Of a DNA stretch of 56,682 bases, positions 28,097-51,196 are shown in pieces. Source of the stretch: a virus; IMG/VR virus record IMGVR_UViG_3300028780_000007, positions 1 to 56,682 of that record; one strand, 5' to 3'. The position numbers were made by a program, and so were the translations under genes. Each line of letters starts with the position of its first letter. Position 1 is the stretch's first letter. The notes under the pieces are model-generated. The model ran no database searches. It was not told the DNA's origin and saw only the letters and a list, made by a program, of their open reading frames with translations.

Positions 28097-28263
28097 CCAG
28101 AACGCTAAAGGAAATCATTAAGGAAGCGGTGATCGGCGCCATGCTCGACGCGGAAAACAACGTGGCCAAGGCTGCGCGGATCTTGGGGGTCGGCCGGGCG
28201 ACCGTGTACCGGAGGCTCAAGGAATACGGGATGCTCAAAAGGAACGTGAGGTCGATTCGATAA
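28093..28263 (+). CDS. Fis-type helix-turn-helix DNA-binding protein
   Basis: 56 aa: IIKEAVIGAMLDAENNVAKAARILGVGRATVYRRLKEYGML is the HTH_8/Fis signature (NNVAKAARILGVGRATVYRRLK). Small enough to be the DNA-binding part of a regulator or nucleoid protein. Coupled by ATGA to 27512 and by TAATG to the HerA-like gene, so it is probably co-expressed and may help load it. Confidence 0.75.
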   Translation: MTRTLKEIIKEAVIGAMLDAENNVAKAARILGVGRATVYRRLKEYGMLKRNVRSIR

Positions 28264-30011
28264 TGAGTTACATCGTGCTCGGAAAATCGGGAGCGCATAA
28301 CGCGAAGCTTGATATCGACATCTTGCTTCGCACGCGCCTTCTCATTCAGGCCAATTCCGGTGGTGGCAAATCCTATTTGCTGCGGAGAATTGCCGAGCAA
28401 CTCTTCGGGAAAGTCCCCGTTATCATCATCGATCCGGAAGGTGAGTTCGCCACGCTGCGCGAGAAGTTTGGGTTTGTTTTGGTCGGCAAAGGTGGCGAGA
28501 CACCGGCAGACCCGCGGTCCGCGGCGCTTGTAGCTCATAAGCTACTCGAGCTCCGCGCCTCCGCGGTGTGCGATTTGTACGAGATGAAGCCTTCGGAGCG
28601 GCATCGGTGGGTGCGATTGTTCGCTGAAGCGATTGTGGACGCACCAAAAAAGCTGTGGCGGCCGACGATTTTCATCGTGGATGAGGTTCACACGTTCGCT
28701 CCAGAGCGCGGCGCCGGCGAGAGTGAAGCGTCGGAAGCGCTAATTGGGATGGCCACGCGCGGCCGGAAACGGCGTTTTTGCTCGATTTGGGCTACGCAGA
28801 GGCTTGGGAAAGTCCGGAAGGACGCTACCGCGGAGTTCTTGAATCGCCTCGTTGGGTCGACGTTTGAGGACGTCGACTTGAAGCGTGCGGCTGAATTGCT
28901 GAGTATTCGTCCAGAAGATCGGCGCGAGTTCGATGCTGAGATGCGCGTGCTGGAGCCTGGCAATTTCTACGGGCTCGGTCGAGCGATCGCGAAAGAGCGG
29001 ATTTTGATTCACATTGGCCCGGTTGAAACGAGCCATGAAGTTGAGGATGCGAAGTACGGCGATGCGCCGCCCCCGGCACCGGATGAAATCCAGAAGCTTT
29101 TGCCGAAGCTGGCGGACTTGCCGAAGGAAGCCGAGGAGAAGGCGAAGACCGAGGCGGAATTGCGTACAGAGATTCGATCTCTCAAAGCGCAGTTGCGTAG
29201 TCAGCCGACCCATAAAATTGAAACGAAGCAGCCTGACAATTCGCAGTGGAATGAAATACAAAGGTACAAGGCTGGCGAAGCTCATCACAAAAAAGAATTC
29301 GAGGATTTATTGAGCATCACGCGGCAAGTCGTAAACGGCGTGGGGCAACTTTCGGTGCTGGCAAGTGAATTGGCAAGAATGAGGATTCCTAAGAGGTTCA
29401 ATATTCCCCGATCGTCAAATTTGCCGAAGGTAAGAGTTTCTAGTGATGATCCACCAAAGCCGTCGCCGCTTCCTCCGCTGCCGAAGCTTGAGAAGTTTCC
29501 GCCAATTGAGCGGGATGCGTCGAACGGAGATTTGGGTGGACCGGAGAAAAAGATTCTTCGCGCACTCTCCGAACTGCGCTCGATCGGGAAAGAAACTCCG
29601 CCGAAAGAAATGGTTGCAGCTTGGGCTTTGTATTCGCCGAACGGTGGGGCGTTTGTGAATCCGCTCGGGAAACTGCGGACACTCGGGCTTGTGGAGTATC
29701 CGGCGCCGGGAGTTGTTTCTCTTACAGCTAGCGGACTTTCCACCATCGGAGAGATTCCGCCGCCTGATTCCGAAGAGATTATGCGGAGGCTTCAGAGTAT
29801 TTGCAGTGGCCCTGAGTGGAAAATCCTCTATGCGCTATTCAAGGAAAGTGGCCAAGAGGAAGTGTCGCGTGCGGATCTCGCGATGCGGAGCGGGTACGAA
29901 GTAAAAGGCGGAGCGTTCGTAAATCCTTTGGGCGCGTTGCGGACCAAGGGGATACTCGATTACCCGCGGCCGGGATTTGTGAAAGCCGCAGATTGGATCT
30001 TCGTGGAATGA
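28263..30011 (+). CDS. HerA/FtsK-like DNA-translocating ATPase with tandem C-terminal domains
   Basis: 582 aa. Walker A near residue 31-37 (ANSGGGKSYLL), Walker B near 137-146 (TIFIVDEVHTF), and ATRGRKRRFCSIWATQRLGKV: the layout of HerA/DUF87-type hexameric ATPases. A long charged helix (about 290-350) leads to a duplicated winged-helix-like C-terminus: 'GGAFVNPLGKLRTLGLVEYPAPGVV' is repeated as 'GGAFVNPLGALRTKGILDYPRPGFV'. HerA-like enzymes pump DNA or act in DNA repair/defence; in a phage this could be a packaging accessory or part of a defence-related system. No NurA nuclease is adjacent. Confidence 0.75.
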   Translation: MSYIVLGKSGAHNAKLDIDILLRTRLLIQANSGGGKSYLLRRIAEQLFGKVPVIIIDPEGEFATLREKFGFVLVGKGGETPADPRSAALVAHKLLELRASAVCDLYEMKPSERHRWVRLFAEAIVDAPKKLWRPTIFIVDEVHTFAPERGAGESEASEALIGMATRGRKRRFCSIWATQRLGKVRKDATAEFLNRLVGSTFEDVDLKRAAELLSIRPEDRREFDAEMRVLEPGNFYGLGRAIAKERILIHIGPVETSHEVEDAKYGDAPPPAPDEIQKLLPKLADLPKEAEEKAKTEAELRTEIRSLKAQLRSQPTHKIETKQPDNSQWNEIQRYKAGEAHHKKEFEDLLSITRQVVNGVGQLSVLASELARMRIPKRFNIPRSSNLPKVRVSSDDPPKPSPLPPLPKLEKFPPIERDASNGDLGGPEKKILRALSELRSIGKETPPKEMVAAWALYSPNGGAFVNPLGKLRTLGLVEYPAPGVVSLTASGLSTIGEIPPPDSEEIMRRLQSICSGPEWKILYALFKESGQEEVSRADLAMRSGYEVKGGAFVNPLGALRTKGILDYPRPGFVKAADWIFVE

Positions 30012-31606: not shown

Positions 31607-31682
31607 GCCAGCGTAGTTCAACGGTAAGAACGCTTCTCTCATAAGGAAGAAATGCACGGTCCAATTCCGGCCGCTGGTACCA
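31607..31682 (+). tRNA. tRNA-Met or -Ile2 (CAT)
   Basis: Acceptor GCCAGCG/CGCTGGT, D-arm GTTC..GAAC, anticodon arm CTTCT-CTCATAA-GGAAG (CAT), CCA encoded. The T-stem pairs poorly and the T-loop is TCCAATT, so it may be divergent or inactive. CAT could also be the tilS-type Ile anticodon. Confidence 0.7.
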
Positions 31683-31701
31683 CTAACCTCGAAAGGACAC
31701 T

Positions 31702-32061
31702 ATGAAAGCTGAACAGGTTGCAAGGGTTTGCCATGAGGCCAATCGGGCCTACTGTGAGGCGATCGGCGATAACTCGCAGGTACGGTGGGAAGATGCTCCG
31801 ACGTGGCAACGCCAGTCGGCCATCACTGGCGTTGAGTTCGTTTTAAAGTCGCTGAGAGAATCAAAAACACTTCCGAGCCCGAGCATGTCGCACGAAAGTT
31901 GGTTGCGGGAGAAGACGAAGGATGGATGGAAATACGGGCCAGTGAAGGACGTCGAGAAGAAAGAGCATCCGTGTTTTGTTTCTTACGATCAATTGCCGCC
32001 GCAGCAGCGCGCGAAAGATTTTCTGTTTCTGGCGGTCGTGGAAGCGTTGTACAATTTCTGA
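31702..32061 (+). CDS. RyR-domain phage protein
   Basis: 119 aa. ARVCHEANRAYCEAIGDNSQVRWEDAPTWQRQSAITGVEF, then SHESWLREKTKDGWKYGPVKDVEKKEHPCFVSYDQLP and a KDFLFLAVVEAL end are the RyR-domain landmarks (small helical domain, also used in T4-like phage proteins). Known members bind nucleotide-like ligands in a few cases; role here unknown. Lies inside the tRNA array. Confidence 0.75.
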   Translation: MKAEQVARVCHEANRAYCEAIGDNSQVRWEDAPTWQRQSAITGVEFVLKSLRESKTLPSPSMSHESWLREKTKDGWKYGPVKDVEKKEHPCFVSYDQLPPQQRAKDFLFLAVVEALYNF

Positions 32062-32062
32062 C

Positions 32063-32139
32063 GCGGACATTGAGCTACGGTGCGCTCGCATCTCTCATAA
32101 GGATGGCCTTATCTGGTTCAACTCCAGAGTCCGCAACCA
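32063..32139 (+). tRNA. tRNA-Met (CAT), second copy
   Basis: Anticodon arm CATCT-CTCATAA-GGATG, T-arm TCTGG-TTCAACT-CCAGA, CCA encoded. Acceptor pairs 6 of 7. Distinct from the 31607 copy, so one may be the initiator and one the elongator or Ile2 type. Confidence 0.75.
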
Positions 32140-32141
32140 AC

Positions 32142-32215
32142 TGGGAAGTCGGCCAAAGGTAGGCCGCTGGGCCTTGGACTCAGCTATCCACGTTCGAGTC
32201 GTGGCTTCCCAGCCA
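32142..32215 (+). tRNA. tRNA-Gln (TTG), C33
   Basis: Acceptor TGGGAAG/CTTCCCA, D-stem GGCC/GGCC, anticodon arm CTGGG-CCTTGGA-CTCAG, CCA encoded. The anticodon loop has C at position 33 instead of the near-universal U. Confidence 0.75.
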
Positions 32216-32222
32216 AATTTTT

Positions 32223-32296
32223 GCGCAGTTAGGTCAGTGGTAGACCGCCCGCCTCCAAATCGGGAAACGGAAGTTCGATCCTTTCGCTGCGCGCCA
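32223..32296 (+). tRNA. tRNA-Trp (CCA)
   Basis: Anticodon arm CCCGC-CTCCAAA-TCGGG (U33 present, CCA anticodon), acceptor GCGCAG/CTGCGC, CCA encoded. Confidence 0.8.
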
Positions 32297-32297
32297 C

Positions 32298-32387
32298 GGA
32301 GAAATGCTCGAGAGGCTGAAGAGGTCCGACTGCTACTCGGACGTGCTGTAAAAGGCACCGTTGGTTCGAATCCAACTTTCTCCGCCA
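32298..32387 (+). tRNA. tRNA-Ser (GCT)
   Basis: Anticodon arm TCCGA-CTGCTAC-TCGGA, long variable arm (class II), acceptor GGAGAAA pairing with TTTCTCC, CCA encoded. A second Ser tRNA (TGA) follows at 34446. Confidence 0.85.
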
Positions 32388-32391
32388 GTTC

Positions 32392-32467
32392 GGTCCCGTA
32401 GCTCAATTGGAAAGAGTTCCAGATTACGAATCTGGCGATCGCGGTTCGAATCCGTGCGGGACCGCCA
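32392..32467 (+). tRNA. tRNA-Arg (ACG)
   Basis: Acceptor GGTCCCG/CGGGACC, anticodon arm CCAGA-TTACGAA-TCTGG, T-loop TTCGAAT, CCA encoded. One of four Arg isoacceptors. Confidence 0.85.
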
Positions 32468-32472
32468 AGTTT

Positions 32473-32560
32473 GGAGCAATGGCACAGCGGCAACTGCCCC
32501 GGACTGTAAATCCGGTGTCCCTTCGGGACTACGAAGGTTCGAGTCCTTCTTGCTCCACCA
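32473..32560 (+). tRNA. tRNA-Tyr (GTA)
   Basis: Class II form with anticodon arm CCGGA-CTGTAAA-TCCGG, variable stem GTCCC/GGGAC, CCA encoded. Confidence 0.85.
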
Positions 32561-32565
32561 TTTTC

Positions 32566-32641
32566 GGTTCCGTCGTCCAATTGCACAGGACACTACCCTC
32601 CGAAGGTAAAAATTCCGGTTGGAATCCGGACGGGACCGCCA
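32566..32641 (+). tRNA. tRNA-Arg (CCG)
   Basis: Acceptor GGTTCCG/CGGGACC, anticodon arm with loop CTCCGAA, CCA encoded. One stem end pair is a mismatch. Confidence 0.75.
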
Positions 32642-32649
32642 AATAACTA

Positions 32650-32678
32650 TTGCAAGCCTGAAGTCTTTCCTGTAAAAC
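32650..32678 (+). promoter_or_regulatory. Possible promoter, reversed-core neighbour
   Basis: TTGCAA (32650-32655), 17-bp spacer, TAAAAC (32673-32678), 10 bp before tRNA-Arg(CCT). AAAACAGCAAGCG, the reverse of the family core with one change, begins at the -10 box and ends just before the tRNA. Weak by itself; the shared core makes it credible. Confidence 0.4.
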
Positions 32679-32687
32679 AGCAAGCGT

Positions 32688-32762
32688 GCTCTCGTGGCCG
32701 AATGGACTAGGCGCTCGAGTCCTAATCGAGTAACGCGAGTTCGAATCTCGCCGAGAGCTCCA
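32688..32762 (+). tRNA. tRNA-Arg (CCT)
   Basis: Anticodon arm CTCGA-GTCCTAA-TCGAG, acceptor GCTCTCG/CGAGAGC, T-loop TTCGAAT, CCA encoded. Confidence 0.85.
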
Positions 32763-32763
32763 T

Positions 32764-32840
32764 GCGAGCGTGGTGCAACTGGTAGACACGGTGACCCCAA
32801 AAGTCATTTTTTGCGAGTTCGAATCTCGCCGCTCGCACCA
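32764..32840 (+). tRNA. tRNA-Leu (CAA), C33, short variable arm
   Basis: Leu-like D-arm (GTGGTGCAACTGGTAGACAC), anticodon arm GTGAC-CCCAAAA-GTCAT, T-arm GCGAG-TTCGAAT-CTCGC, CCA encoded. Position 33 is C and the variable region is only about five nt, unlike ordinary class II Leu tRNAs. Confidence 0.7.
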
Positions 32841-32854
32841 ATATTGGAGGGGTG

Positions 32855-32995
32855 ATGGGAACTACTTGTAAGCACGGAACGGACAATATGTTTACGTGTC
32901 CTCATTGCCGAAAAGAATTTAAGGTTTCCGAAGCGATCAGGGAGCCGAGAAAAGAAGAGAAGTCGATGGAAGAGCAGCAACGAGAAGTTGAGTGA
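32855..32995 (+). CDS. Small zinc-finger protein inside the tRNA array
   Basis: 46 aa; GGAGGGGTG upstream. C-x-H then C-x2-H-C (CKHGTDNMFTCPHCRKEF) and a charged helical tail. No family recognised. Confidence 0.6.
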   Translation: MGTTCKHGTDNMFTCPHCRKEFKVSEAIREPRKEEKSMEEQQREVE

Positions 32996-32999
32996 CATT

Positions 33000-33082
33000 G
33001 CGCGAGTGGTGGAATGCATACACATCAGCCTTAGAAGCTGACGCCTTCGGGATTGGGGGTTCGACTCCCTCCTCGCGCACCA
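33000..33082 (+). tRNA. tRNA-Leu (TAG)
   Basis: Class II with variable arm CGCCTTCGGG, anticodon arm TCAGC-CTTAGAA-GCTGA, acceptor GCGCGAG/CTCGCGC, CCA encoded. Confidence 0.85.
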
Positions 33083-33092
33083 AATTTAGAAT

Positions 33093-33169
33093 GCGCCACT
33101 ATCCCAACTGGAAGAGGACGTGGACTTAAAATCCACTAGATCGGAGTTCGAATCTCCGGTGGCGCACCA
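33093..33169 (+). tRNA. tRNA with TAA anticodon (Leu), class I shape
   Basis: Acceptor GCGCCAC/GTGGCGC, anticodon arm GTGGA-CTTAAAA-TCCAC, T-arm CGGAG-TTCGAAT-CTCCG, CCA encoded. TAA predicts Leu, but the variable region is short as in class I tRNAs, so its charging identity is less certain. Confidence 0.75.
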
Positions 33170-33179
33170 AAATCGTGCC

Positions 33180-33431
33180 ATGAAATCAGCGTGCCCAAAT
33201 TGCTTAACTCCGAGCGATCTCCCGGTAAACATACGGCCGGATTGGTTCGTTCTCTGCTTTTCCTGCGCGTTCATTGGGGTTCTCGCGGCGGATATGAGCG
33301 TGCGAGAGGCAACCGATAGGGATTTCGCCGAGGCGACCGAGTACGCTAGGGGCTGGATGTATCGCAAACAGAACCTCGTGTTGATAAATATTTACAGAAA
33401 AAGGTTTGCACGGCACGCGGACATGAATTAA
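33180..33431 (+). CDS. Small zinc-ribbon protein inside the tRNA array
   Basis: 83 aa. C-x2-C (SACPNCLTPS) and C-x2-C (LCFSCAFIG) flank a short hydrophobic stretch; basic C-terminus. No family recognised. Confidence 0.6.
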   Translation: MKSACPNCLTPSDLPVNIRPDWFVLCFSCAFIGVLAADMSVREATDRDFAEATEYARGWMYRKQNLVLINIYRKRFARHADMN

Positions 33432-33439
33432 ATTTCTTT

Positions 33440-33517
33440 GGGGCTGTGCGGTAAGGGACATCCGGCCCGTCTTCTAAGCGGGATAATTTGAGAGTTCGAA
33501 TCTCTCCAGCCCCACCA
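33440..33517 (+). tRNA. tRNA-Arg (TCT)
   Basis: Anticodon arm CCCGT-CTTCTAA-GCGGG, acceptor GGGGCTG/CAGCCCC, T-loop TTCGAAT, CCA encoded. Confidence 0.85.
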
Positions 33518-33519
33518 GT

Positions 33520-33594
33520 GGCGCGGTAGCCAAGTGGGAAGGTTGGGGCCTGCAAAGTCCCGATGAGCGTGTTCGATTCACGCCCGCGCCTCCA
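33520..33594 (+). tRNA. tRNA-Cys (GCA)
   Basis: Anticodon arm GGGGC-CTGCAAA-GTCCC, acceptor GGCGCGG/CCGCGCC, CCA encoded. Confidence 0.85.
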
Positions 33595-33618
33595 AGATTC
33601 GTAAGGGAGGAAAAAGTA

Positions 33619-33819
33619 ATGTTTTTGACTCCTGTAGTTACAGTGCTTGAAAAGATTGCCGTGTCGATCAACAGGCTTACAACTGCTGTCGATACGAGAG
33701 GAGAACAGATTTCTAATGTTCTCGGTCAAATCTTGAAGGCACTTCAGAAGCAACCACAAGTACCTGGGGAGGCGGTTTCCCTGAAACTCACCCTCGGTAA
33801 AGCAGTGCAACAGAAGTAA
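33619..33819 (+). CDS. Small helical phage protein
   Basis: 66 aa, AAGGGAGG upstream. Predicted helical: VVTVLEKIAVSINRLTTAVDTRGEQISNVLGQILKALQ, compatible with a small coiled coil. Unknown function. Confidence 0.6.
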   Translation: MFLTPVVTVLEKIAVSINRLTTAVDTRGEQISNVLGQILKALQKQPQVPGEAVSLKLTLGKAVQQK

Positions 33820-33840
33820 AATTCACGGAGGAAAAACGAA

Positions 33841-34221
33841 ATGGCAAACCCACAGATTGGAGATACCCAGCAGGCGCCTTATTCTGTAACCGGTTTGGAC
33901 GCGGACGGACAGCCGGCGCAGCTTGAACCAGGTGATGTGGTAACTGTCACGTCTTCGGCCCCAGCATCGCTTTCGGTTGTTCCCGACGCAACGCCGGCTC
34001 CGGGCTCGCTCGCTTCCGGTCAGTTGGTTGGCGGAACGACGCTTGCGGTTGGAGTGACGATCACGGCGGTCATCACGCACACGGACGGCACTTCGGCAAC
34101 GGCGACGGATACGATTGACGTCGTTTCCGGTGAGGCTGCAACGTTGGCAATCGGGCTCGGCGCACCTGTGTCGCAGACGCAGCCACCGGCGCCGGCTTCG
34201 GCTCGTCAGGCTGGTCGGTAA
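33841..34221 (+). CDS. Ig-like-fold phage protein
   Basis: 126 aa. Repeated beta pattern with DADGQPAQLEPGDVVTVTSSAP and VGVTITAVITHTDGTSATATDTIDVV, like bacterial Ig (Big) domains used as decoration on phage capsids and tails. No signal peptide. Probably a virion surface protein despite lying in the tRNA region. Confidence 0.6.
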   Translation: MANPQIGDTQQAPYSVTGLDADGQPAQLEPGDVVTVTSSAPASLSVVPDATPAPGSLASGQLVGGTTLAVGVTITAVITHTDGTSATATDTIDVVSGEAATLAIGLGAPVSQTQPPAPASARQAGR

Positions 34222-34242
34222 CATCGTTTCGTAGTTTGGGTT

Positions 34243-34345
34243 GGGGTACGCGAAGGGCAAGCCGTGTAGACGGCGCGTACCCCGGCCATCATTCAAGTTT
34301 GTTTTAATAGGCCGATCCTTGTTAAAGGAAACGGCCTATAATTTT
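34243..34345 (+). ncRNA. Structured RNA segment, two long hairpins
   Basis: First hairpin: 10-bp stem GGGGTACGCG (34243-34252)/CGCGTACCCC (34274-34283) with an inner CCGT-GTAG-ACGG hairpin. Second: ATAGGCCG (34307-34314)/CGGCCTAT (34332-34339) topped by TCCTT-GTTA-AAGGA, then ATAATTTTAAT. It ends seven bp before the next tRNA. Could be a processing or termination element, or an independent RNA. Confidence 0.6.
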
Positions 34346-34351
34346 AATATG

Positions 34352-34443
34352 GGTCGCCAGCACTGGGTGCGGGTTCGGCTTATACCCGAGCGAGATTCCC
34401 GGATTGGGGAGACGGCACGGATCGTAACCGTGGGCGACCACCA
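34352..34443 (+). tRNA. Unusual tRNA-like gene, isotype unresolved
   Basis: Perfect 7-bp acceptor GGTCGCC/GGCGACC, discriminator A, encoded CCA, and T-arm CACGG-ATCGTAA-CCGTG (same odd T-loop as tRNA-Thr(TGT) at 37013). Between them the D-arm is compact, and the anticodon arm can be drawn as TTCGG-CTTATAC-CCGAG (anticodon TAT, Ile) with a 25-nt extra arm, or as GGGTT-CGGCTTA-TACCC (GCT). The isotype cannot be decided by eye. Confidence 0.5.
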
Positions 34444-34445
34444 TC

Positions 34446-34533
34446 GGAAGGCACTGCTGCAAGGGCGGCAACTGGCCCTGAAAGCCAGGGCGTCTCCAAC
34501 GGGACGGGGGTTCGAATCCTCTGCCTTCCGCCA
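34446..34533 (+). tRNA. tRNA-Ser (TGA), C33
   Basis: Class II with anticodon arm CTGGC-CCTGAAA-GCCAG; position 33 is C. Acceptor GGAAGGC pairs with GCCTTCC, T-loop TTCGAAT, CCA encoded. Confidence 0.8.
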
Positions 34534-34543
34534 AATTTCATTT

Positions 34544-34557
34544 GTCCAGATATGGAC
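34544..34557. promoter_or_regulatory. 14-bp palindromic operator-like site, copy 10
   Basis: GTCCAGATATGGAC followed by GAAT, in the 28-bp gap between tRNA-Ser(TGA) and tRNA-Ile(GAT). Its place inside a tRNA transcript argues for a function other than, or beyond, promoter repression. Confidence 0.75.
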
Positions 34558-34561
34558 GAAT

Positions 34562-34635
34562 GGTGGCGTAGCTCAGTGGCAGAGCTCGCGGTCGATAACC
34601 GCGCGACGGGTGTTCGATTCACCACGTCACCACCA
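34562..34635 (+). tRNA. tRNA-Ile (GAT), C33
   Basis: Anticodon arm CGCGG-TCGATAA-CCGCG with C33; acceptor GGTGGCG/CGTCACC; CCA encoded. Confidence 0.8.
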
Positions 34636-34637
34636 AC

Positions 34638-34711
34638 GCTGACTTCGTACAATGGAAGTACTCTCGTTTGAAGCACGAGCAACGTCCGTTCGATTCGGAC
34701 AGTCAGCGCCA
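34638..34711 (+). tRNA. tRNA-Phe (GAA)
   Basis: Anticodon arm CTCGT-TTGAAGC-ACGAG, acceptor GCTGACT/AGTCAGC, CCA encoded. Confidence 0.85.
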
Positions 34712-34726
34712 CTCTTAGGAGGAGCA

Positions 34727-35098
34727 ATGAAAAAGCCGTATGAGTATGCTGACGAATTGGTGACCACCGGTGGAAAGGATGCTCTTGAGCACCTTGAAAC
34801 GAATATCAAAACTCACACGACTCGTTTTCGCTTGTACACTGCAATTCACAGCTATTCAATTTCAATGATTCTCCCGTCGCCAGAGAAGCCAAACGGTTAT
34901 ATGGGTTGTATTGCATCTTGTCGCGCTCCGTATCCCGGAGAGACGCACACGCGAGGGAATGATTTGCCGGATGGGCCGTACAGCGATGAAACGTGGCACG
35001 CAATCCTGGCTGCCATTGTGAGGTATGAGATTTTGCCGCTCTATCGGAGTTCTGGGTTTATTCCAGTGCGAAACACGGGTACTGAAGCGAATGCTTGA
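34727..35098 (+). CDS. Phage protein of unknown function
   Basis: 123 aa, AGGAGGAGC upstream. Contains HLETNIKTHTTRFRLYTAIHSYSISMILPSPEKPNGYMGCIASCR and DGPYSDETWHAILAAIVRYEIL. Its stop overlaps the -35 box of the promoter at 35095. No family recognised. Confidence 0.6.
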   Translation: MKKPYEYADELVTTGGKDALEHLETNIKTHTTRFRLYTAIHSYSISMILPSPEKPNGYMGCIASCRAPYPGETHTRGNDLPDGPYSDETWHAILAAIVRYEILPLYRSSGFIPVRNTGTEANA

Positions 35099-35123
35099 CG
35101 GTCGCTCGCTGTTTAGATACCAT
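35095..35123 (+). promoter_or_regulatory. Promoter, conserved-spacer class (tRNA cluster)
   Basis: TTGACG (35095-35100), 17-bp spacer with CGCTCGCTGTTT, TACCAT (35118-35123). RNA would start near 35130, two bases before tRNA-Val(TAC), so this promoter is dedicated to tRNA expression. Confidence 0.7.
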
Positions 35124-35131
35124 TCATTTCG

Positions 35132-35202
35132 CCGGCCTTGTCGTCTGGTGACGGCCCTCCCCTTACAAGGGAGTTAAGCAGGATTCGATTTCCTGGGTCG
35201 GT
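35132..35202 (+). tRNA. tRNA-Val (TAC)
   Basis: Acceptor CCGGCCT/GGGTCGG, anticodon arm CTCCC-CTTACAA-GGGAG, T-arm CAGGA-TTCGATT-TCCTG. CCA is not encoded. First RNA after the promoter. Confidence 0.8.
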
Positions 35203-35204
35203 AC

Positions 35205-35277
35205 GCCGGCATAGCTTAGTGACAAAGCATCGCATCGGTAATGCGACGACCTGAGTTTGATTCTCAGTGCTGGCTCC
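35205..35277 (+). tRNA. tRNA-Thr (GGT), C33
   Basis: Acceptor GCCGGCA/TGCTGGC, anticodon arm TCGCA-TCGGTAA-TGCGA with C33, T-arm CTGAG-TTTGATT-CTCAG. The 3' end is TCCG rather than a full CCA. Confidence 0.75.
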
Positions 35278-35351
35278 GGGAGTGTAATTCAGTGGAAGAA
35301 GCCCTCTCTCTTAAAGAGGAAACGAGTGTTCGATTCACTCCACTCCCACCA
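35278..35351 (+). tRNA. tRNA-Lys (CTT)
   Basis: Anticodon arm CCTCT-CTCTTAA-AGAGG, acceptor GGGAGTG/CACTCCC, CCA encoded. Directly abuts the preceding tRNA. Confidence 0.85.
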
Positions 35352-35358
35352 AGTTTAT

Positions 35359-35434
35359 TGGGCAGTAGCATAATTGGTATTGCGTTCCGCTGTTACCGGA
35401 AAGGATGACCGTTCGAATCGGTCCTGCCCAGCCA
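35359..35434 (+). tRNA. tRNA-Asn (GTT)
   Basis: Anticodon arm TTCCG-CTGTTAC-CGGAA, acceptor TGGGCAG/CTGCCCA, CCA encoded. Confidence 0.85.
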
Positions 35435-35463
35435 ATTTTGTTGATTGTGATCGAGGAGGAAAT

Positions 35464-35835
35464 ATGAAATCGAAATACAAGTCGTTGCTCGTGTTCTTCG
35501 GCTTCTTGCTGTTCGCAACGGTTTTGATGGCGCAGACAGCGCCATCGGCGCCGGCCGCTCCAACGCAGTCGATGGGCATTGCGCAGACTGTCATCGTTCT
35601 TGCTGGGGTGGTTGCCTCGATACTGCAAGGCGTGAAGCAACTGGTCCCGCAGATTAACGGGAAGGTTGCCATAGCCATCAGCATCGCCGCGTCGCTTGCA
35701 TTGGCTTATGCCGCCGCGCAGCCTGGGCAGGTGATCAGCATTCAATTTCTTATCACCACGCTCGGCACGGCGTTAGGCTCTAACGGCATTTACGATTTCT
35801 TGAAGAAACCAAAAGCGCCAGTACCAGCGGCGTAA
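35464..35835 (+). CDS. Putative holin-like membrane protein
   Basis: 123 aa; GAGGAGG upstream. Signal-like helix at the N-terminus (residues 7-22), then two more hydrophobic segments (about 40-58 and 68-84) and a short tail containing TALGSNGIYDFLKK, an ending common in phage holins. The arrangement fits pore formation at lysis, but no endolysin is seen in this window, so the label is tentative. Confidence 0.55.
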   Translation: MKSKYKSLLVFFGFLLFATVLMAQTAPSAPAAPTQSMGIAQTVIVLAGVVASILQGVKQLVPQINGKVAIAISIAASLALAYAAAQPGQVISIQFLITTLGTALGSNGIYDFLKKPKAPVPAA

Positions 35836-35861
35836 CCGGAGGTAGTCATGAGAGGTGACCG

Positions 35862-36047
35862 ATGATTTTGCTTATCATTGTGCTGATTCTGGTGTTCGGT
35901 GTGGGCGGCGGTTATTACGGCAATAGCCGCTGGGGAGCGCAGGGCGGGTTCGGGATGGGGCTGGGCACGATCCTGATAATCCTTTTGATTCTGTATCTGC
36001 TAGGTGCCTTTGGCGGCGGTGGCTTCGGGCACGGCAGATTGTTCTAA
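35862..36047 (+). CDS. Small glycine-rich membrane protein (DUF3309-like)
   Basis: 61 aa: a hydrophobic N-terminus (MILLIIVLILVFGVGGGYYG), a GGFGMGLGTILIILLILYLLGAF helix, and a glycine-rich end. The 'RWG..GG.G.GL..ILLIL.LL' pattern is that of DUF3309 small membrane proteins. Often in bacterial genomes; the copy next to the holin-like gene could be lysis related. Confidence 0.55.
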   Translation: MILLIIVLILVFGVGGGYYGNSRWGAQGGFGMGLGTILIILLILYLLGAFGGGGFGHGRLF

Positions 36048-36053
36048 GAGTGG

Positions 36054-36178
36054 CGCGTTCCGCGTGTTGACCCGAGCGCGGATTCACCGCGGGCTTAACA
36101 GCCCACATCGGGTCCAGAACGGGAAGCAGCTACCAAAAGTGCTGCGATGCGGCTAATACCGCCTAGCGGCGCGTCAAC
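36054..36178 (+). ncRNA. Structured RNA segment with cloverleaf-like fold
   Basis: A 7-bp stem GACCCGA (36069-36075)/TCGGGTC (36108-36114) encloses CGCGG-ATTCA-CCGCG (36077-36091) and GGGCT-TAAC-AGCCC (36091-36104). Two more hairpins follow: GCAGC (36126-36130)/GCTGC (36141-36145) and GCGG-CTAATA-CCGC (36149-36162). GTTGAC (36066)/GTCAAC (36173) can close the whole segment. It has no credible open frame and ends right at tRNA-Lys(TTT). Confidence 0.6.
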
Positions 36179-36252
36179 GGGCGATTAATTTAGTGGGAAA
36201 AGATCGGGCTTTTACCCCGAGAACGAAGGTTCGATTCCTTCATCGCCCACCA
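36179..36252 (+). tRNA. tRNA-Lys (TTT)
   Basis: Anticodon arm TCGGG-CTTTTAC-CCCGA, acceptor GGGCGAT/ATCGCCC, CCA encoded. Confidence 0.85.
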
Positions 36253-36253
36253 A

Positions 36254-36327
36254 GCGGGTGTCGTATAGTGGAATTACCCCTGTCTTCCAAACAGGTGACG
36301 AGTGTTCGATTCACTCCATCCGCTCCA
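36254..36327 (+). tRNA. tRNA-Gly (TCC)
   Basis: Anticodon arm CCTGT-CTTCCAA-ACAGG, acceptor GCGGGTG/CATCCGC, CCA encoded. Confidence 0.85.
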
Positions 36328-36331
36328 TTTC

Positions 36332-36405
36332 GCCGATGTCGTCCAGTGGGAAGACGTCGATCTCGTACATCGAAGACGACTGTTCGATTCAGTCCATCGG
36401 CTCCA
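36332..36405 (+). tRNA. tRNA-Thr (CGT)
   Basis: Anticodon arm TCGAT-CTCGTAC-ATCGA, acceptor GCCGATG/CATCGGC, CCA encoded. One of three Thr isoacceptors. Confidence 0.85.
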
Positions 36406-36423
36406 ATTTCAGAAAGGATCGCC

Positions 36424-36834
36424 ATGACCGAAGCTCAAATCGAAGATGTCGGCGAAGCTTTGAACCGGCGCGTTCCGAAAAAATATCACGAGGGAGCTCC
36501 TCATCCGCGTCCAATTGGCAGGCCGTTTTTCACGGGTTTCAAAACCAATGTTCCCGCACAGAATTTGTCGGAGGAAGAAAACGCGAAGTTGGTGGCGGCC
36601 GTAGAAAAGCCCGGCGATTTAGGGTATGTGGCGCAATTTGTTTTTTACGCAAAGATTGCGGGGGGGCCGTTCTTTTACGTGAATCTTCCTAATATGAAGG
36701 GCGGCAGGTACGAGATCGGCGAAAGCTTCGACATCGGCGAGGAGCGAGTGCATTGCGATATCTCGCAGCGGGATTTAGAGTCGATGTTGGAAGCTGGCTA
36801 CAAAAAGATTTGTGAGATTTCTGGGGTTGTCTGA
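36424..36834 (+). CDS. Phage protein of unknown function
   Basis: 136 aa. Helical N-terminus, then PFFTGFKTNVPAQNLSEEE and a beta region GGPFFYVNLPNMKGGRYEIGESFDIGEERVHC. Its last 12 bp overlap the tRNA-Glu(CTC) 5' end, so translation and RNA processing compete. No family recognised. Confidence 0.6.
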   Translation: MTEAQIEDVGEALNRRVPKKYHEGAPHPRPIGRPFFTGFKTNVPAQNLSEEENAKLVAAVEKPGDLGYVAQFVFYAKIAGGPFFYVNLPNMKGGRYEIGESFDIGEERVHCDISQRDLESMLEAGYKKICEISGVV

Positions 36835-36896
36835 CAGTGGAAGTCAATCTCCCTCTCGAGGAGAAAACGCGGGTTCGATTCCCGCCAACCCTACCA
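36823..36896 (+). tRNA. tRNA-Glu (CTC)
   Basis: Anticodon arm TCTCC-CTCTCGA-GGAGA, acceptor GGGGTTG/CAACCCT, T-loop TTCGATT, CCA encoded. Starts 12 bp before the stop of the preceding gene. Confidence 0.85.
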
Positions 36897-36899
36897 AGT

Positions 36900-37001
36900 T
36901 CGCGGCGAGGGGGATACCGTTTGAATATTTTTGGTGAATAAAACGGCCGCTTGGCGGATGTTACGGTCCAAGCGCGTACCGCCCTACTTAGCTCGCCGCG
37001 A
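36900..37001 (+). ncRNA. Structured RNA with 10-bp closing stem and two arms
   Basis: TCGCGGCGAG (36900-36909) pairs with CTCGCCGCGA (36992-37001). Inside are CCGTTT (36917-36922)/AAACGG (36941-36946) and CGCTTGG (36948-36954)/CCAAGCG (36968-36974), a three-way junction. No credible open frame. Lies between tRNA-Glu(CTC) and tRNA-Thr(TGT). Confidence 0.6.
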
Positions 37002-37012
37002 TTTAATTTCAC

Positions 37013-37087
37013 GCCGCCATAGCTCAATTGGTAGAGCCTCTCACTTGTAACGAGAAGACGAGGGATCGTAACCTTCTGGCGGCTCCA
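37013..37087 (+). tRNA. tRNA-Thr (TGT)
   Basis: Anticodon arm TCTCA-CTTGTAA-CGAGA, acceptor GCCGCCA/TGGCGGC, CCA encoded. T-loop is ATCGTAA instead of TTCGANT, shared with the odd tRNA at 34352. Confidence 0.75.
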
Positions 37088-37103
37088 GTTTTGAGGGGTT
37101 TAT

Positions 37104-37562
37104 ATGGCAGACGTAATTGAAATGCAGCCGAAACAAGAACGGCATTCGCTTGAGAAGAAACGGAATGACGGTTACGTGATCGTTGAGGAGGTCGTCGATG
37201 GTAAGACGACCGGCAAACGATTCCATTGCGAGCACAATGTCTTAGAAGTCGATGAGCGCCGCGGGGTGGTGATATGCAAGACCTGTGGTGACGAAATGTC
37301 TCCGCTTGAAGCTCTAAAGCTTCTCTATCGCACGATTTGGTGGGAAGAGAACACGCGCGAGCGGCAAATTGAGTACGATCAAAAGCGCGTTTCGAAGGTT
37401 CAAGTCGCGGCGCTTATTTGTCTTTACGAGGCCGGTGTGACGCCAGAGAAGTACGCCGAGCGGTGGAACAAAGAACACGCGCGCCGCGCTACGCTGGAAA
37501 TTGCGAAGGTTGCGGAGAAGCAAGTGGCGATTGACGGCGGGTCAGAAAAGCCAGTAGCCTAA
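37104..37562 (+). CDS. Zinc-binding phage protein
   Basis: 152 aa. RFHCEHNVLEVDERRGVVICKTCGDEMSPLEAL gives C-x-H ... C-x2-C around residues 40-65, followed by a long helix. Pattern common to phage hypotheticals in virion or tRNA regions. Ends just before the promoter at 37569. Confidence 0.65.
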   Translation: MADVIEMQPKQERHSLEKKRNDGYVIVEEVVDGKTTGKRFHCEHNVLEVDERRGVVICKTCGDEMSPLEALKLLYRTIWWEENTRERQIEYDQKRVSKVQVAALICLYEAGVTPEKYAERWNKEHARRATLEIAKVAEKQVAIDGGSEKPVA

Positions 37563-37568
37563 AAAAAG

Positions 37569-37597
37569 TTGCAAAACAGCAAGCGCTGTGCAATTCT
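37569..37597 (+). promoter_or_regulatory. Promoter, reversed-core class (tRNA cluster)
   Basis: TTGCAA (37569-37574), spacer AACAGCAAGCGCTGTGC, AATTCT (37592-37597). RNA would start near 37603, one base before tRNA-Glu(TTC). The spacer has the reversed core AACAGC(A/G)AGCG as at 94. Confidence 0.55.
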
Positions 37598-37603
37598 CTT
37601 TTC

Positions 37604-37680
37604 GGGGTTATCGTCTAGACGGCCCAGGATCCAAGATTTTCACTCTTGAGACGCCGGTTCGAATCCGGCTAACCCTGCCA
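37604..37680 (+). tRNA. tRNA-Glu (TTC)
   Basis: Anticodon arm CAAGA-TTTTCAC-TCTTG, acceptor GGGGTTA/TAACCCT, T-loop TTCGAAT, CCA encoded. Confidence 0.85.
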
Positions 37681-37682
37681 AT

Positions 37683-37757
37683 GGGGGCGTAGTGACAAAG
37701 TGAACACGGCTCGCTTGCACCGAGCAAAAGCCCGTTAGAATCGGGTCGCCTCCACCA
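37683..37757 (+). tRNA. tRNA-Ala (TGC)
   Basis: Anticodon arm GCTCG-CTTGCAC-CGAGC, acceptor GGGGGCG/CGCCTCC, T-loop TTAGAAT, CCA encoded. Confidence 0.8.
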
Positions 37758-37828
37758 AGATCGACGCAGTATTTAGCGTCAACGAGCGAGGTCAAGTGCG
37801 ATGGTCGGGCGCGCACAGGGACCAATTT

Positions 37829-37865
37829 ATCCGCTTCGGCCCGCTAGATTGTAGAAGGGGCGGAT
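37829..37865 (+). promoter_or_regulatory. Hairpin sequestering the ribosome-binding site of 37866
   Basis: ATCCGCTTC (37829-37837) pairs with GAAG...GCGGAT (37854-37865, 3-nt bulge), so the GAAGGGG ribosome-binding site and the base before ATG 37866 are inside the stem. Translation would need unwinding, ligand or coupling. A second hairpin, GACGC/GCGTC (37763-37780), lies upstream in the same 108-bp leader. Confidence 0.5.
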
Positions 37866-38129
37866 ATGACAAATCTGAAGGGAGCTTTGCCGATGCCAGC
37901 GCCAGGATTTCAGGGAATCACGGAACAAAATTTGAAGAACTGGTTTACGTACCACAAGCCCACCGAGGGGCAGAACGAACAGTACCTTGCCATCCGCGAA
38001 GCGGCGCTTATTTTCGCGCGCACGATCGTGGCGAACACGCCAGTGAGCGCGGACCAGTCTTCTGCGATTCGGCATGTTCGTATGGCGACGATGGAAGCGA
38101 ATCAATCGATCGCTTGTGGCGGACACTAA
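37866..38129 (+). CDS. Acb2-like anti-CBASS protein
   Basis: 87 aa, all-helical: TEQNLKNWFTYHKPTEGQNEQYLAIREAALIFARTIVANTPVSADQSSAIRHVRMATMEANQSIACGG. The NWFTYH motif, the A.IF..L..P.S.(D/E).S.AI..V...M..AN..IA end and total length match the Acb2/Tad1 helical hairpin family. Known Acb2 proteins form hexamers that bind cyclic di- and trinucleotides and block CBASS and related immunity. Ribosome-binding site sequestered in a hairpin, so its timing may be controlled. Confidence 0.7.
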   Translation: MTNLKGALPMPAPGFQGITEQNLKNWFTYHKPTEGQNEQYLAIREAALIFARTIVANTPVSADQSSAIRHVRMATMEANQSIACGGH

Positions 38130-38136
38130 AAAGTTC

Positions 38137-38213
38137 GGAGGCGTAGAGGAGTGGCCGTCCTCGGCTCACTGTCTATGAGCAAACCGTGGGTTCGAATCCC
38201 ATCGTCTCCGCCA
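38137..38213 (+). tRNA. tRNA-Asp (GTC)
   Basis: Anticodon arm GCTCA-CTGTCTA-TGAGC, acceptor GGAGGCG/CGTCTCC, CCA encoded. Confidence 0.85.
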
Positions 38214-38215
38214 AT

Positions 38216-38291
38216 GGTAGATGAAGCCAAACGGTGCGGCGCCTGATTGTGGATCAGGTTCTAGTGGGTCCGACTCCCATCTTCTACCCCA
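38216..38291 (+). tRNA. tRNA-His (GTG)
   Basis: Anticodon arm CCTGA-TTGTGGA-TCAGG, extra 5' G (G-1) opposite discriminator C73, the tRNA-His hallmark, CCA encoded. Confidence 0.85.
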
Positions 38292-38297
38292 AGTTTC

Positions 38298-38373
38298 GGC
38301 GGAGTAGGGTAACGGCTATCCCACCTGCTTTGGGAGCAGGGAACTGCGAGTTCGAATCTCGCCTCTGCCACCA
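38298..38373 (+). tRNA. tRNA-Pro (TGG)
   Basis: Anticodon arm CCTGC-TTTGGGA-GCAGG, acceptor GGCGGAG/CTCTGCC, CCA encoded. Confidence 0.85.
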
Positions 38374-38395
38374 ATTTCCACATACCACACAGAGA

Positions 38396-38480
38396 GGGGC
38401 AGGGAGGCGTAAAACCGCGGGCGAGAACCGAGGCGAAAGCCAAAGTACACCTGTTGGGTAGTGCGCGCCTCCCCAGTCCC
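38396..38480 (+). ncRNA. Structured RNA segment
   Basis: GGGAGGCG (38402-38409) pairs with CGCCTCCC (38466-38473), extended outside by GGG/CCC. Inside are a GGC-GAAA-GCC tetraloop hairpin (38432-38441) and weaker CGG/CCG pairing. Between tRNA-Pro(TGG) and tRNA-Pro(CGG). No credible open frame. Confidence 0.5.
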
Positions 38481-38490
38481 GTTTAAGATT

Positions 38491-38565
38491 CGAGGCGTAG
38501 CGAAGAGGAAACGCGCAGCTTTCGGGAAGCTGAGATCGCCAGTTCGAGTCTGGCCGCCTCGACCA
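38491..38565 (+). tRNA. tRNA-Pro (CGG)
   Basis: Anticodon arm CAGCT-TTCGGGA-AGCTG, acceptor CGAGGCG/CGCCTCG, CCA encoded. Confidence 0.85.
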
Positions 38566-38584
38566 AATTGGAGGTTTCGATGTC

Positions 38585-39013
38585 ATGGCTTTTACGCGCA
38601 AAGAAATCCAGCTGAGATATAGACTCAGGCATCCTGGTTATTGGAAGAAAGATGCGGCGCGTGCGGCAAAATGGGCGCGAGACAATCCGGAATGGTTTAA
38701 AAACTATCGAAATACCCATAGAATTAAATTTCGCGAGTGGAGACGTAACAGTAAGATTAAACGAAAATACGGCATCAGTGCGGCTGAATATGGTTCTTTG
38801 TTGAAAGCGCAGAATAATATTTGCGCAGTATGTAAGAAGCCATTTGCAGGTAATCTTCGATGTGGCACCGATCCAGTTCTTGATCATCGGCATGGTGGCA
38901 AGATAAGAGAATTCATCCATCGCAAGTGCAATGTGGCGATTGGGTTTTTGTGTGATGATCCAGTGTTGTGTCGTTTGGCCGCTGAATATCTGGAAAAGCA
39001 CGCTAGCTTTTGA
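38585..39013 (+). CDS. Recombination endonuclease VII-like protein
   Basis: 142 aa. Basic N-terminus, then YGSLLKAQNNICAVCKKPF, LDHRHGGKIREFIHRKCNVAIGFLCDD: the Endonuclease VII motif set (C-x2-C, DH.H..GK.R..(C/H)..CN..IG..DD) of T4 gp49. T4 Endo VII resolves branched DNA during packaging. Fits with recombination genes upstream and terminase downstream. The GGAGG site is about 10 bp from the ATG. Confidence 0.8.
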   Translation: MAFTRKEIQLRYRLRHPGYWKKDAARAAKWARDNPEWFKNYRNTHRIKFREWRRNSKIKRKYGISAAEYGSLLKAQNNICAVCKKPFAGNLRCGTDPVLDHRHGGKIREFIHRKCNVAIGFLCDDPVLCRLAAEYLEKHASF

Positions 39014-39125
39014 TGATTTCATGGGGTATCCCCCAGTCGAGCCAATGCTGTTGCGGTTGTAAAACAAAAAGAACTGACAACAAAATGGAACTACCTCTCG
39101 CGGCCTAACGGCTAGCGAGGCGCTT

Positions 39126-39151
39126 CCCGGTGAGCGAAATCACCGGGTTTT
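39126..39151 (+). terminator. Intrinsic terminator within the tRNA array
   Basis: CCCGGTGA-GCGAAA-TCACCGGG (39126-39147) then TTTT. Preceded by a second hairpin CTCGC GGCC-TAAC-GGCT A GCGAG (39097-39119). Ends the run after the endonuclease VII gene; tRNA-Gln(CTG) follows five bases after the T-run. Confidence 0.7.
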
Positions 39152-39155
39152 CAAT

Positions 39156-39231
39156 TCCGGGGTCGTCTAATTCGACAGGATAATCGCCTCTGAAGCGATC
39201 GATAAAGGTTTGAATCCTTTCCCCGGAGCCA
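39156..39231 (+). tRNA. tRNA-Gln (CTG)
   Basis: Anticodon arm ATCGC-CTCTGAA-GCGAT, acceptor TCCGGGG/CCCCGGA, CCA encoded. Lies after the terminator, so needs its own promoter or read-through. Last tRNA in the array. Confidence 0.85.
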
Positions 39232-50233: not shown

Positions 50234-51196
50234 ATGGCCCTTACGTACGATGACATCACCTCTAAAACAAACAAGTTCATCGTTCCGCGCCTAGTTGACA
50301 ACGTTTACAAGTCTTCCCCAATCTTCACTAGGCTGCGCACGAAGAACGCAGAAAAGTTCGAGGGTGGCACGACGATTCGGCACCCGATCATGTATGCCGC
50401 GTTGAAGGGCGGTCCCTTCACTCGCGGTGCAACGTTTGACATCACGTACGTGCAGACGGACACCGCACTCGAGGTGAACGTCAAGTACTACTACGTGAAC
50501 ATCACTCTCTACGGCACGGATAACGTGCTCAACCGCGGCCCCGAGGCCGCAATGTCGTACGTCGAATCCAAGATGGTGAACGCTGCCGGCCGGATGGCGC
50601 AATTGCTCGGCACCGATCTCTTCTTGGACGGCCAGGGCACGCTTAGTCCAACGATTTCGTTGGACGGCTTGACCGCGGCCGTGGACGACGGAACGAACTA
50701 CGCCACCTACGGTGGCATCACCCGGACGGACATCGCCACGGGCGACAACGTGGGAATCAACGGCTATTACGCAAGCGTTCCAACGCTTTCGTTGGCGGCC
50801 GTGCAAACGGCGTTCGGCGCAACCTGGTTCGGAAACGAACGCACGGACTTGATGCCGACCGACCAAAACACCTGGAACATTCTGTGGAACAAGATCCAGC
50901 CGCAACAGCGGTTCAACGAGACGTCTTCGGACGTCGCGAAGATCGGCTTCCAGTCGTTGCAGTACAACGGCGCGCAGGTCGTGGTTGACCAGTACGCCCC
51001 GGCTGGCGTGCTCTGGTTCTTGAACACGAAGTACATCCAGTTCTGGATCTCCACCATGCGGAAATACCAATTCGGTTTCACCGGATGGAAAGAGGCCCAG
51101 AACACAGACGACGTTGCCGGTCAGTACATGTTCGGCGGCAACTTGCTCGTGGTAGCGCCACGTTTGATGGGGCGCATCGCGGGCATCACCGGCTAA
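50234..51196 (+). CDS. Major capsid protein
   Basis: 320 aa. Conserved patterns: IVPRLVDNVYKSSPIFTRLRTKN, FEGGTTIRHPIMYAALKGGPFTRGA, TDTALEVNVKYYYVNITLYGTDNVLNRGP, and GTDLFLDGQG, as in HK97-fold coat proteins of this group. Position after the scaffold and strong ribosome-binding site (GGAGGAACG) agree. Builds the head. Confidence 0.85.
   Translation: MALTYDDITSKTNKFIVPRLVDNVYKSSPIFTRLRTKNAEKFEGGTTIRHPIMYAALKGGPFTRGATFDITYVQTDTALEVNVKYYYVNITLYGTDNVLNRGPEAAMSYVESKMVNAAGRMAQLLGTDLFLDGQGTLSPTISLDGLTAAVDDGTNYATYGGITRTDIATGDNVGINGYYASVPTLSLAAVQTAFGATWFGNERTDLMPTDQNTWNILWNKIQPQQRFNETSSDVAKIGFQSLQYNGAQVVVDQYAPAGVLWFLNTKYIQFWISTMRKYQFGFTGWKEAQNTDDVAGQYMFGGNLLVVAPRLMGRIAGITG

Follow-up and report, generated by a model that had tools for sequence, protein, structure and literature searches.

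The DNA of 56,682 bases deposited as the IMG/VR virus record IMGVR_UViG_3300028780_000007 (positions 1 to 56,682; the whole stretch is referred to below as the window) contains phage replication, packaging and head genes together with a dense array of tRNA genes, five of which encode cytidine instead of uridine at position 33 of the anticodon loop (C33 instead of U33). Is this substitution a special functional change of this phage, selected for evasion of nucleases that cut at the U-turn or compensated by C-to-U editing, as a preliminary description had suggested? A comparison with tRNAs of other phages and of bacteria lends no support to such a change and reveals C33 as a widespread minority state that follows phage G+C content (GC) and is scattered over most isotypes. 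We therefore favor, with a probability of roughly 0.6, the explanation that C33 results from recurrent U33-to-C transitions that carry a mild constant penalty and accumulate with the mutational GC bias of the phage.

ARAGORN identifies 33 tRNA genes within 31607-39231, on the + strand throughout, and a tRNA-His(GTG) that ARAGORN overlooks is found by Rfam, bringing the total to 34 tRNAs that cover all 20 amino acids. C33 is confined to exactly the five tRNAs originally listed, namely Gln-TTG, Leu-CAA, Ser-TGA, Ile-GAT and Thr-GGT, and the remaining 28 tRNAs found by ARAGORN have U33. The relevant features are the following:

31607..39231, + strand: tRNA array, 34 tRNA genes with small open reading frames (ORFs) interleaved, U33 in 29 (ARAGORN and Rfam)
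32142..32215, + strand: tRNA-Gln(TTG), C33 at 32173, anticodon arm CTGGG-CCTTGGA-CTCAG (ARAGORN; Rfam RF00005, 50.3 bits)
32764..32840, + strand: tRNA-Leu(CAA), C33 at 32797, anticodon arm GTGAC-CCCAAAA-GTCAT, short variable loop (ARAGORN; Rfam, 53.0 bits)
34446..34533, + strand: tRNA-Ser(TGA), C33 at 34478, anticodon arm CTGGC-CCTGAAA-GCCAG (ARAGORN; fails RF00005)
34562..34635, + strand: tRNA-Ile(GAT), C33 at 34593, anticodon arm CGCGG-TCGATAA-CCGCG (ARAGORN; Rfam, 52.9 bits)
35205..35277, + strand: tRNA-Thr(GGT), C33 at 35236, anticodon arm TCGCA-TCGGTAA-TGCGA, CCA not encoded (ARAGORN; Rfam, 58.7 bits)
38217..38288, + strand: tRNA-His(GTG), U33, C55 in the T-loop (GTCCGA) (Rfam, 43.0 bits)

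The anticodon arms are indeed well paired: in each of the five C33 tRNAs, 5 of 5 stem pairs are formed around a loop of 7 nucleotides, and because the stems are fully paired, no alternative fold or register places U at position 33. Four of the five pass the Rfam tRNA model, at 50.3-58.7 bits against a gathering score of 29. The least regular among them is tRNA-Ser(TGA), which fits the tRNA-Sec model better than the general tRNA model (42.8 bits, its best Rfam match, under the gathering score of 47) and has the anticodon TGA (Ser), not TCA. Sequencing error is excluded because a contig separately assembled from another data set (L070), which spans 8508 bases of the array at 99.99% identity with one mismatch, shows the same five C33; another contig (L096) is likewise near-identical to the array of the window. 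Thus, recurrence of C33 in unrelated tRNAs of one array, the central observation of the preliminary description, holds.

To place the array among other phages, tRNA-bearing IMG/VR contigs were fetched by pattern scans for Ile-GAT (with C33, with U33 or with either), for a generic tRNA and for Val-GAC, and the anticodon used for fetching was left out of the background count. In 3,347 distinct phage tRNAs, position 33 is U in 3,189, C in 143 (4.3%), G in 10 and A in 5. C33 occurs in most isotypes, usually as the sole change in an otherwise normal loop, and is independent of the wobble base (3.3-4.4% for each N34); the composition of N32 and N38 is alike in C33 and U33 tRNAs, with no accompanying change at either position. 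Since A33 and G33 are almost never seen, this pattern is not what a drive merely to lose U33 would predict. Phages of matched GC have C33 in 3.4-5.2% of their tRNAs, a background that the 5 of 33 in the window exceed (binomial P of about 0.005-0.03), and comparable counts are found in other contigs (6/40, 6/18, 5/16 and 4/12), so the excess is not outlandish among phage contigs. Among isolates, C33 is present in 1 of 19 tRNAs of Cronobacter phage CR9, 1 of 19 of Caulobacter phage CcrBL9 and 0 of 20 of T5 (39% GC).

The frequency of C33 depends strongly on GC. From contigs below 35% to those above 60% GC, the C33 fraction rises through 0, 0.6, 1.3, 3.6, 7.5, 9.7 and 9.7% (Spearman 0.52, p=6e-17). 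In an Ile-GAT sample in which position 33 could be any pyrimidine, 19 of 80 tRNAs have C33, with 0 of 17 below 40% GC and 15 of 35 at 45% GC or more. The comparison with other phage tRNAs bears out the wide recurrence of C33, at a frequency that tracks GC, and C33 is no peculiarity of the phage in the window. If a T-to-C transition is in mutation-selection balance against a small penalty that stays the same throughout, a slope of 1 and a constant offset are expected. The regression of logit(C33) on logit(fourfold-site GC) has a slope of 1.26 (95% interval 1.01 to 1.59, bootstrap over contigs), and the offset of the C33 log-odds is near -3 in every GC bin. Other transitions show comparable slopes (1.00 for T55-to-C, 1.31 for A58-to-G and 0.74 for T54-to-C) and are rarer, with intercepts of -4.7 to -5.7 vs -3.1, which makes U33-to-C the least penalized of these changes.

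Under the favored explanation, position 33 would need a pyrimidine, C being only mildly worse than U, and in GC-rich genomes mutation towards C would keep a predictable fraction of tRNAs at C33. The substitution would lower, not abolish, decoding at a small fitness cost to the phage, and selection on each phage tRNA gene would be weaker than on host tRNA genes, so that C33 would be accepted; for Val-GAC, Val-UAC and Ile-GAU, the penalty would be close to nil. Apart from C33, these tRNAs are intact in sequence, and they probably remain able to decode, perhaps at reduced efficiency. U33 is bonded through its N3-H to the phosphate of residue 36; mammalian initiator tRNA has C33 (PMC8080527). The change U33C in human mitochondrial tRNA-Thr has no significant effect on formation of N6-threonylcarbamoyladenosine (t6A) (PMC7102964), and mutation of U33 reportedly degrades translational efficiency (PMC3664417).

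Most C33 events are independent of each other. In most isotypes, the nearest same-anticodon neighbor of a C33 tRNA has U33, which leads us to reject transfer of a single C33 tRNA as the source for these isotypes; for Ile-GAT, where neighbors share C33, transfer is possible in part, and parsimony on a rough tree still needs 36 changes. Relatives of the phage were collected with its major head protein:

50234..51196, + strand: major head protein gene (PHROG 9953, E=2e-40), query for relatives

This search yielded 68 loci, and C33 counts in the relatives with tRNA arrays are 4/32, 2/28, 1/24, 3/31, 2/10, 5/28 and 0/28, mostly in differing isotypes. Same-anticodon tRNAs across these relatives share only 53-77% identity, and a C33 tRNA mostly has a U33 tRNA as its closest ortholog, which implies that the changes within the family are mostly independent as well. 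The sole A33 seen among the head-protein relatives is that of a tRNA-Ile(TAT) with the loop CATATAA (contig L136). The only cellular relative is a contig of an Acidobacteriota metagenome-assembled genome that encodes a 71% identical head protein and may itself be phage DNA. Among the named phages of the collection searched, no relative of the window was found at the DNA level, and head protein matches are distant (at most 28% identity); relatives collected by a terminase-like protein (28263-30011) have almost no tRNAs in the stretches read, save the same phage.

The bacterial comparison covers this one phylum, with tRNAs of 14 Acidobacteriota genomes that were selected for consensus bases in the D- and T-arms. 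U33 is found in 110 of these 111 tRNAs, so that C33 amounts to 1/111 vs 92/1009 (~9%) in phage arrays of at least 50% GC (Fisher p=8e-4). Of 297 genomes scanned, 44 have the Ile-GAT pattern with U33; the corresponding pattern with C33 occurs at one place, whose sequence does not resemble a tRNA. To our knowledge, U33 is near-universal in other bacteria. The lone Acidobacteriota C33 belongs to a tRNA-Val(GAC) with the loop CCGACGA (genome G052, contig L660, 9649-9725), located in an ordinary chromosome stretch of 65.6% GC near CPSase and RecA genes. Its isotype is the one richest in C33 in phages.

Several observations weigh against a balance of mutation and mild selection as the complete explanation. 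After control for GC, C33 is in excess in three isoacceptors, with 10 cases observed against 1.7 expected for Val-GAC, 10 against 2.8 for Val-TAC and 7 against 1.7 for Ile-GAT; Met, Gln-CTG, Ser-GCT and Gly are depleted. Ile-GAT holds long-lived C33 lineages, the nearest neighbor also having C33 in 85 of 102 cases. C33 clusters within contigs more than a GC-stratified shuffle would give (p=0.0065), and the head-protein family, including the window, has a roughly two-fold excess over GC-matched phages (22/214 pooled vs 19/441, p=0.005). GC may be a proxy for host lineage in the GC statistics, which are without full phylogenetic correction. Finally, N32, T8 and Y60 have no GC slope; by the same token, a drift of tRNA composition as a whole does not account for the C33 effect. 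A weaker excess in Ala-GGC also survives GC control. A broader richness of C33 in G34/C34 isoacceptors of four-codon boxes was considered and set aside as partly a GC effect, with Val, Ile-GAU and, more weakly, Ala-GGC surviving the control. Tolerance peculiar to certain isotypes, effects on decoding and nuclease evasion are all compatible with these isotype and family excesses, and any of them may contribute. We regard it as a tentative possibility, and a rather doubtful one, that C33 in Val-GAC, Val-UAC and Ile-GAU of phages would be a selected anticodon-loop form, directed against a host nuclease or altering decoding, with stable lineages at least in Ile-GAU, and that C33 of the other isotypes would be background.

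Evasion in the general form, whereby host anticodon nucleases reading the U-turn or cutting 3' of U33 would spare phage tRNAs with C33 and translation would continue, is unlikely. PrrC cuts 3' of U33 and RloC at the same site (PMC2610378), escape from VapC, PrrC and colicin-type nucleases has been proposed for phage tRNAs with altered anticodon loops (PMC10264068), the Acidobacteriota tRNAs almost lack C33, C33 is concentrated in particular isotypes, and an array covering all 20 amino acids would be expected if host tRNAs were depleted. However, evasion does not predict the GC dependence; A33 and G33 would equally remove U33, yet together they are ten times rarer than C33; no companion change appears at 32 or 38; and C33 is spread over most isotypes without enrichment in Lys, the PrrC target. 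As GC-scaled mutation with a mild penalty would account for C33, evasion is not needed, although it may apply to the over-represented Val and Ile-GAU tRNAs. We also consider it improbable that C33 adjusts decoding, loosening the U-turn and tuning ribosome affinity or wobble in Val, Ile-GAU and Ala-GGC, where it would be selected. The isotype-specific enrichment at equal GC, the stable Ile-GAT C33 lineages and the Val-GAC C33 among ordinary genes of one bacterial chromosome are consistent with such tuning, but four of the five C33 tRNAs of the window (Gln, Leu-CAA, Ser-TGA and Thr-GGT) are outside the significantly enriched set, and the reported loss of translational efficiency upon change of U33 (PMC3664417) is a cost, not tuning.

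The view of C33 as a mark of tRNA genes on the way to becoming pseudogenes, suggested by its rarity, by the general lack of close C33 neighbors outside Ile-GAT and by the poor Rfam score of Ser-TGA in the window, is rejected as very unlikely: T-loops are no less intact in C33 than in U33 tRNAs, anticodon stems are better paired, and four of the five window tRNAs score 50-59 bits in Rfam. Nor are C33 tRNAs preferentially redundant, and their interpretation as spare copies is likewise rejected (C33 at high GC in 9.6% of non-redundant vs 7.9% of redundant tRNAs, redundant meaning that the codons are readable by another tRNA of the same array). Restoration of U33 in the mature tRNA by C-to-U editing, with which the almost exclusive replacement by C and hardly by A or G agrees, is the least probable reading of all, given that transitions suffice for a C-only pattern and that no cytidine deaminase turned up among 60 ORFs of the window in a Pfam search. 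The same search gave no tRNA-repair gene. We know of no editing at tRNA position 33 in bacteria or phages. Accordingly, the data do not require either editing or evolved evasion in this phage.

Known systems share only parts of this pattern. Mycobacteriophages of cluster C1 likewise have dense tRNA arrays, with 33 genes on average and up to 36, and anticodon-loop differences from bacterial tRNAs, but their changes lie at sites where nucleases of an identified host are known to act, whereas here the change tracks GC; the text does not mention U33, C33 or position 33 (van den Berg et al. 2023, PMC10264068). In Shigella phage Sf14, anticodon loops also differ from those of the host, and nuclease evasion was judged unlikely by the authors; the changes are mostly at loop positions 1 and 7, with some at 6, and unlike here, none is named at position 33 (PMC12482277). 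C33 in otherwise normal tRNAs is known from mammalian initiator tRNA-Met (PMC8080527) and from tRNA-Cys(GCA) of Sulfolobales (PMC7668247), where it is fixed in one isotype per lineage, whereas in phages it is scattered over many elongator isotypes. CR9, CcrBL9 and a contig that is 100% identical to Aeromonas phage 31 at this locus (L151) also have tRNA-Ile(GAU) with C33; these are unrelated phages, usually with one C33 tRNA in the stretch read, and the gene is annotated simply as tRNA-Ile.

Other features of the array are unusual as well. A long variable arm is normal for bacterial tRNA-Leu; here, tRNA-Leu(CAA) (32764-32840) and tRNA-Leu(TAA) (33093-33169) are 77 nucleotides long with short, class-I-like variable loops, and Leu tRNAs of 75-79 nucleotides are also found in relatives (Leu-TAG in L128, Leu-TAA in L129 and all three Leu tRNAs in L130). 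Conversely, tRNA-Ile(TAT) (34352-34443) is 92 nucleotides long, with an apparent long variable arm that is unusual for Ile and a score under the Rfam tRNA threshold, and Ile-TAT genes of 93-94 nucleotides are present in L129, L130 and L134. Among the ORFs of the window, Pfam detects single ones with ASCH, RyR and CxxCxxCC domains, as well as RecA, a primase-helicase, and HNH or endonuclease VII.

A literature search found no published description of recurrent C33 in phage tRNAs; the general pattern is thus undescribed as far as found, and modestly interesting for tRNA biology. U33, held near-invariant in tRNA, relaxes to C at a predictable rate in phage arrays, and these arrays supply natural U33/C33 tRNA pairs for probing the role of U33 on the ribosome and with anticodon nucleases. 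Anticodon-loop differences in GC-rich phages need a GC-matched background before they are read as nuclease evasion, and it is the over-representation in Val and Ile-GAU tRNAs that merits experiment.

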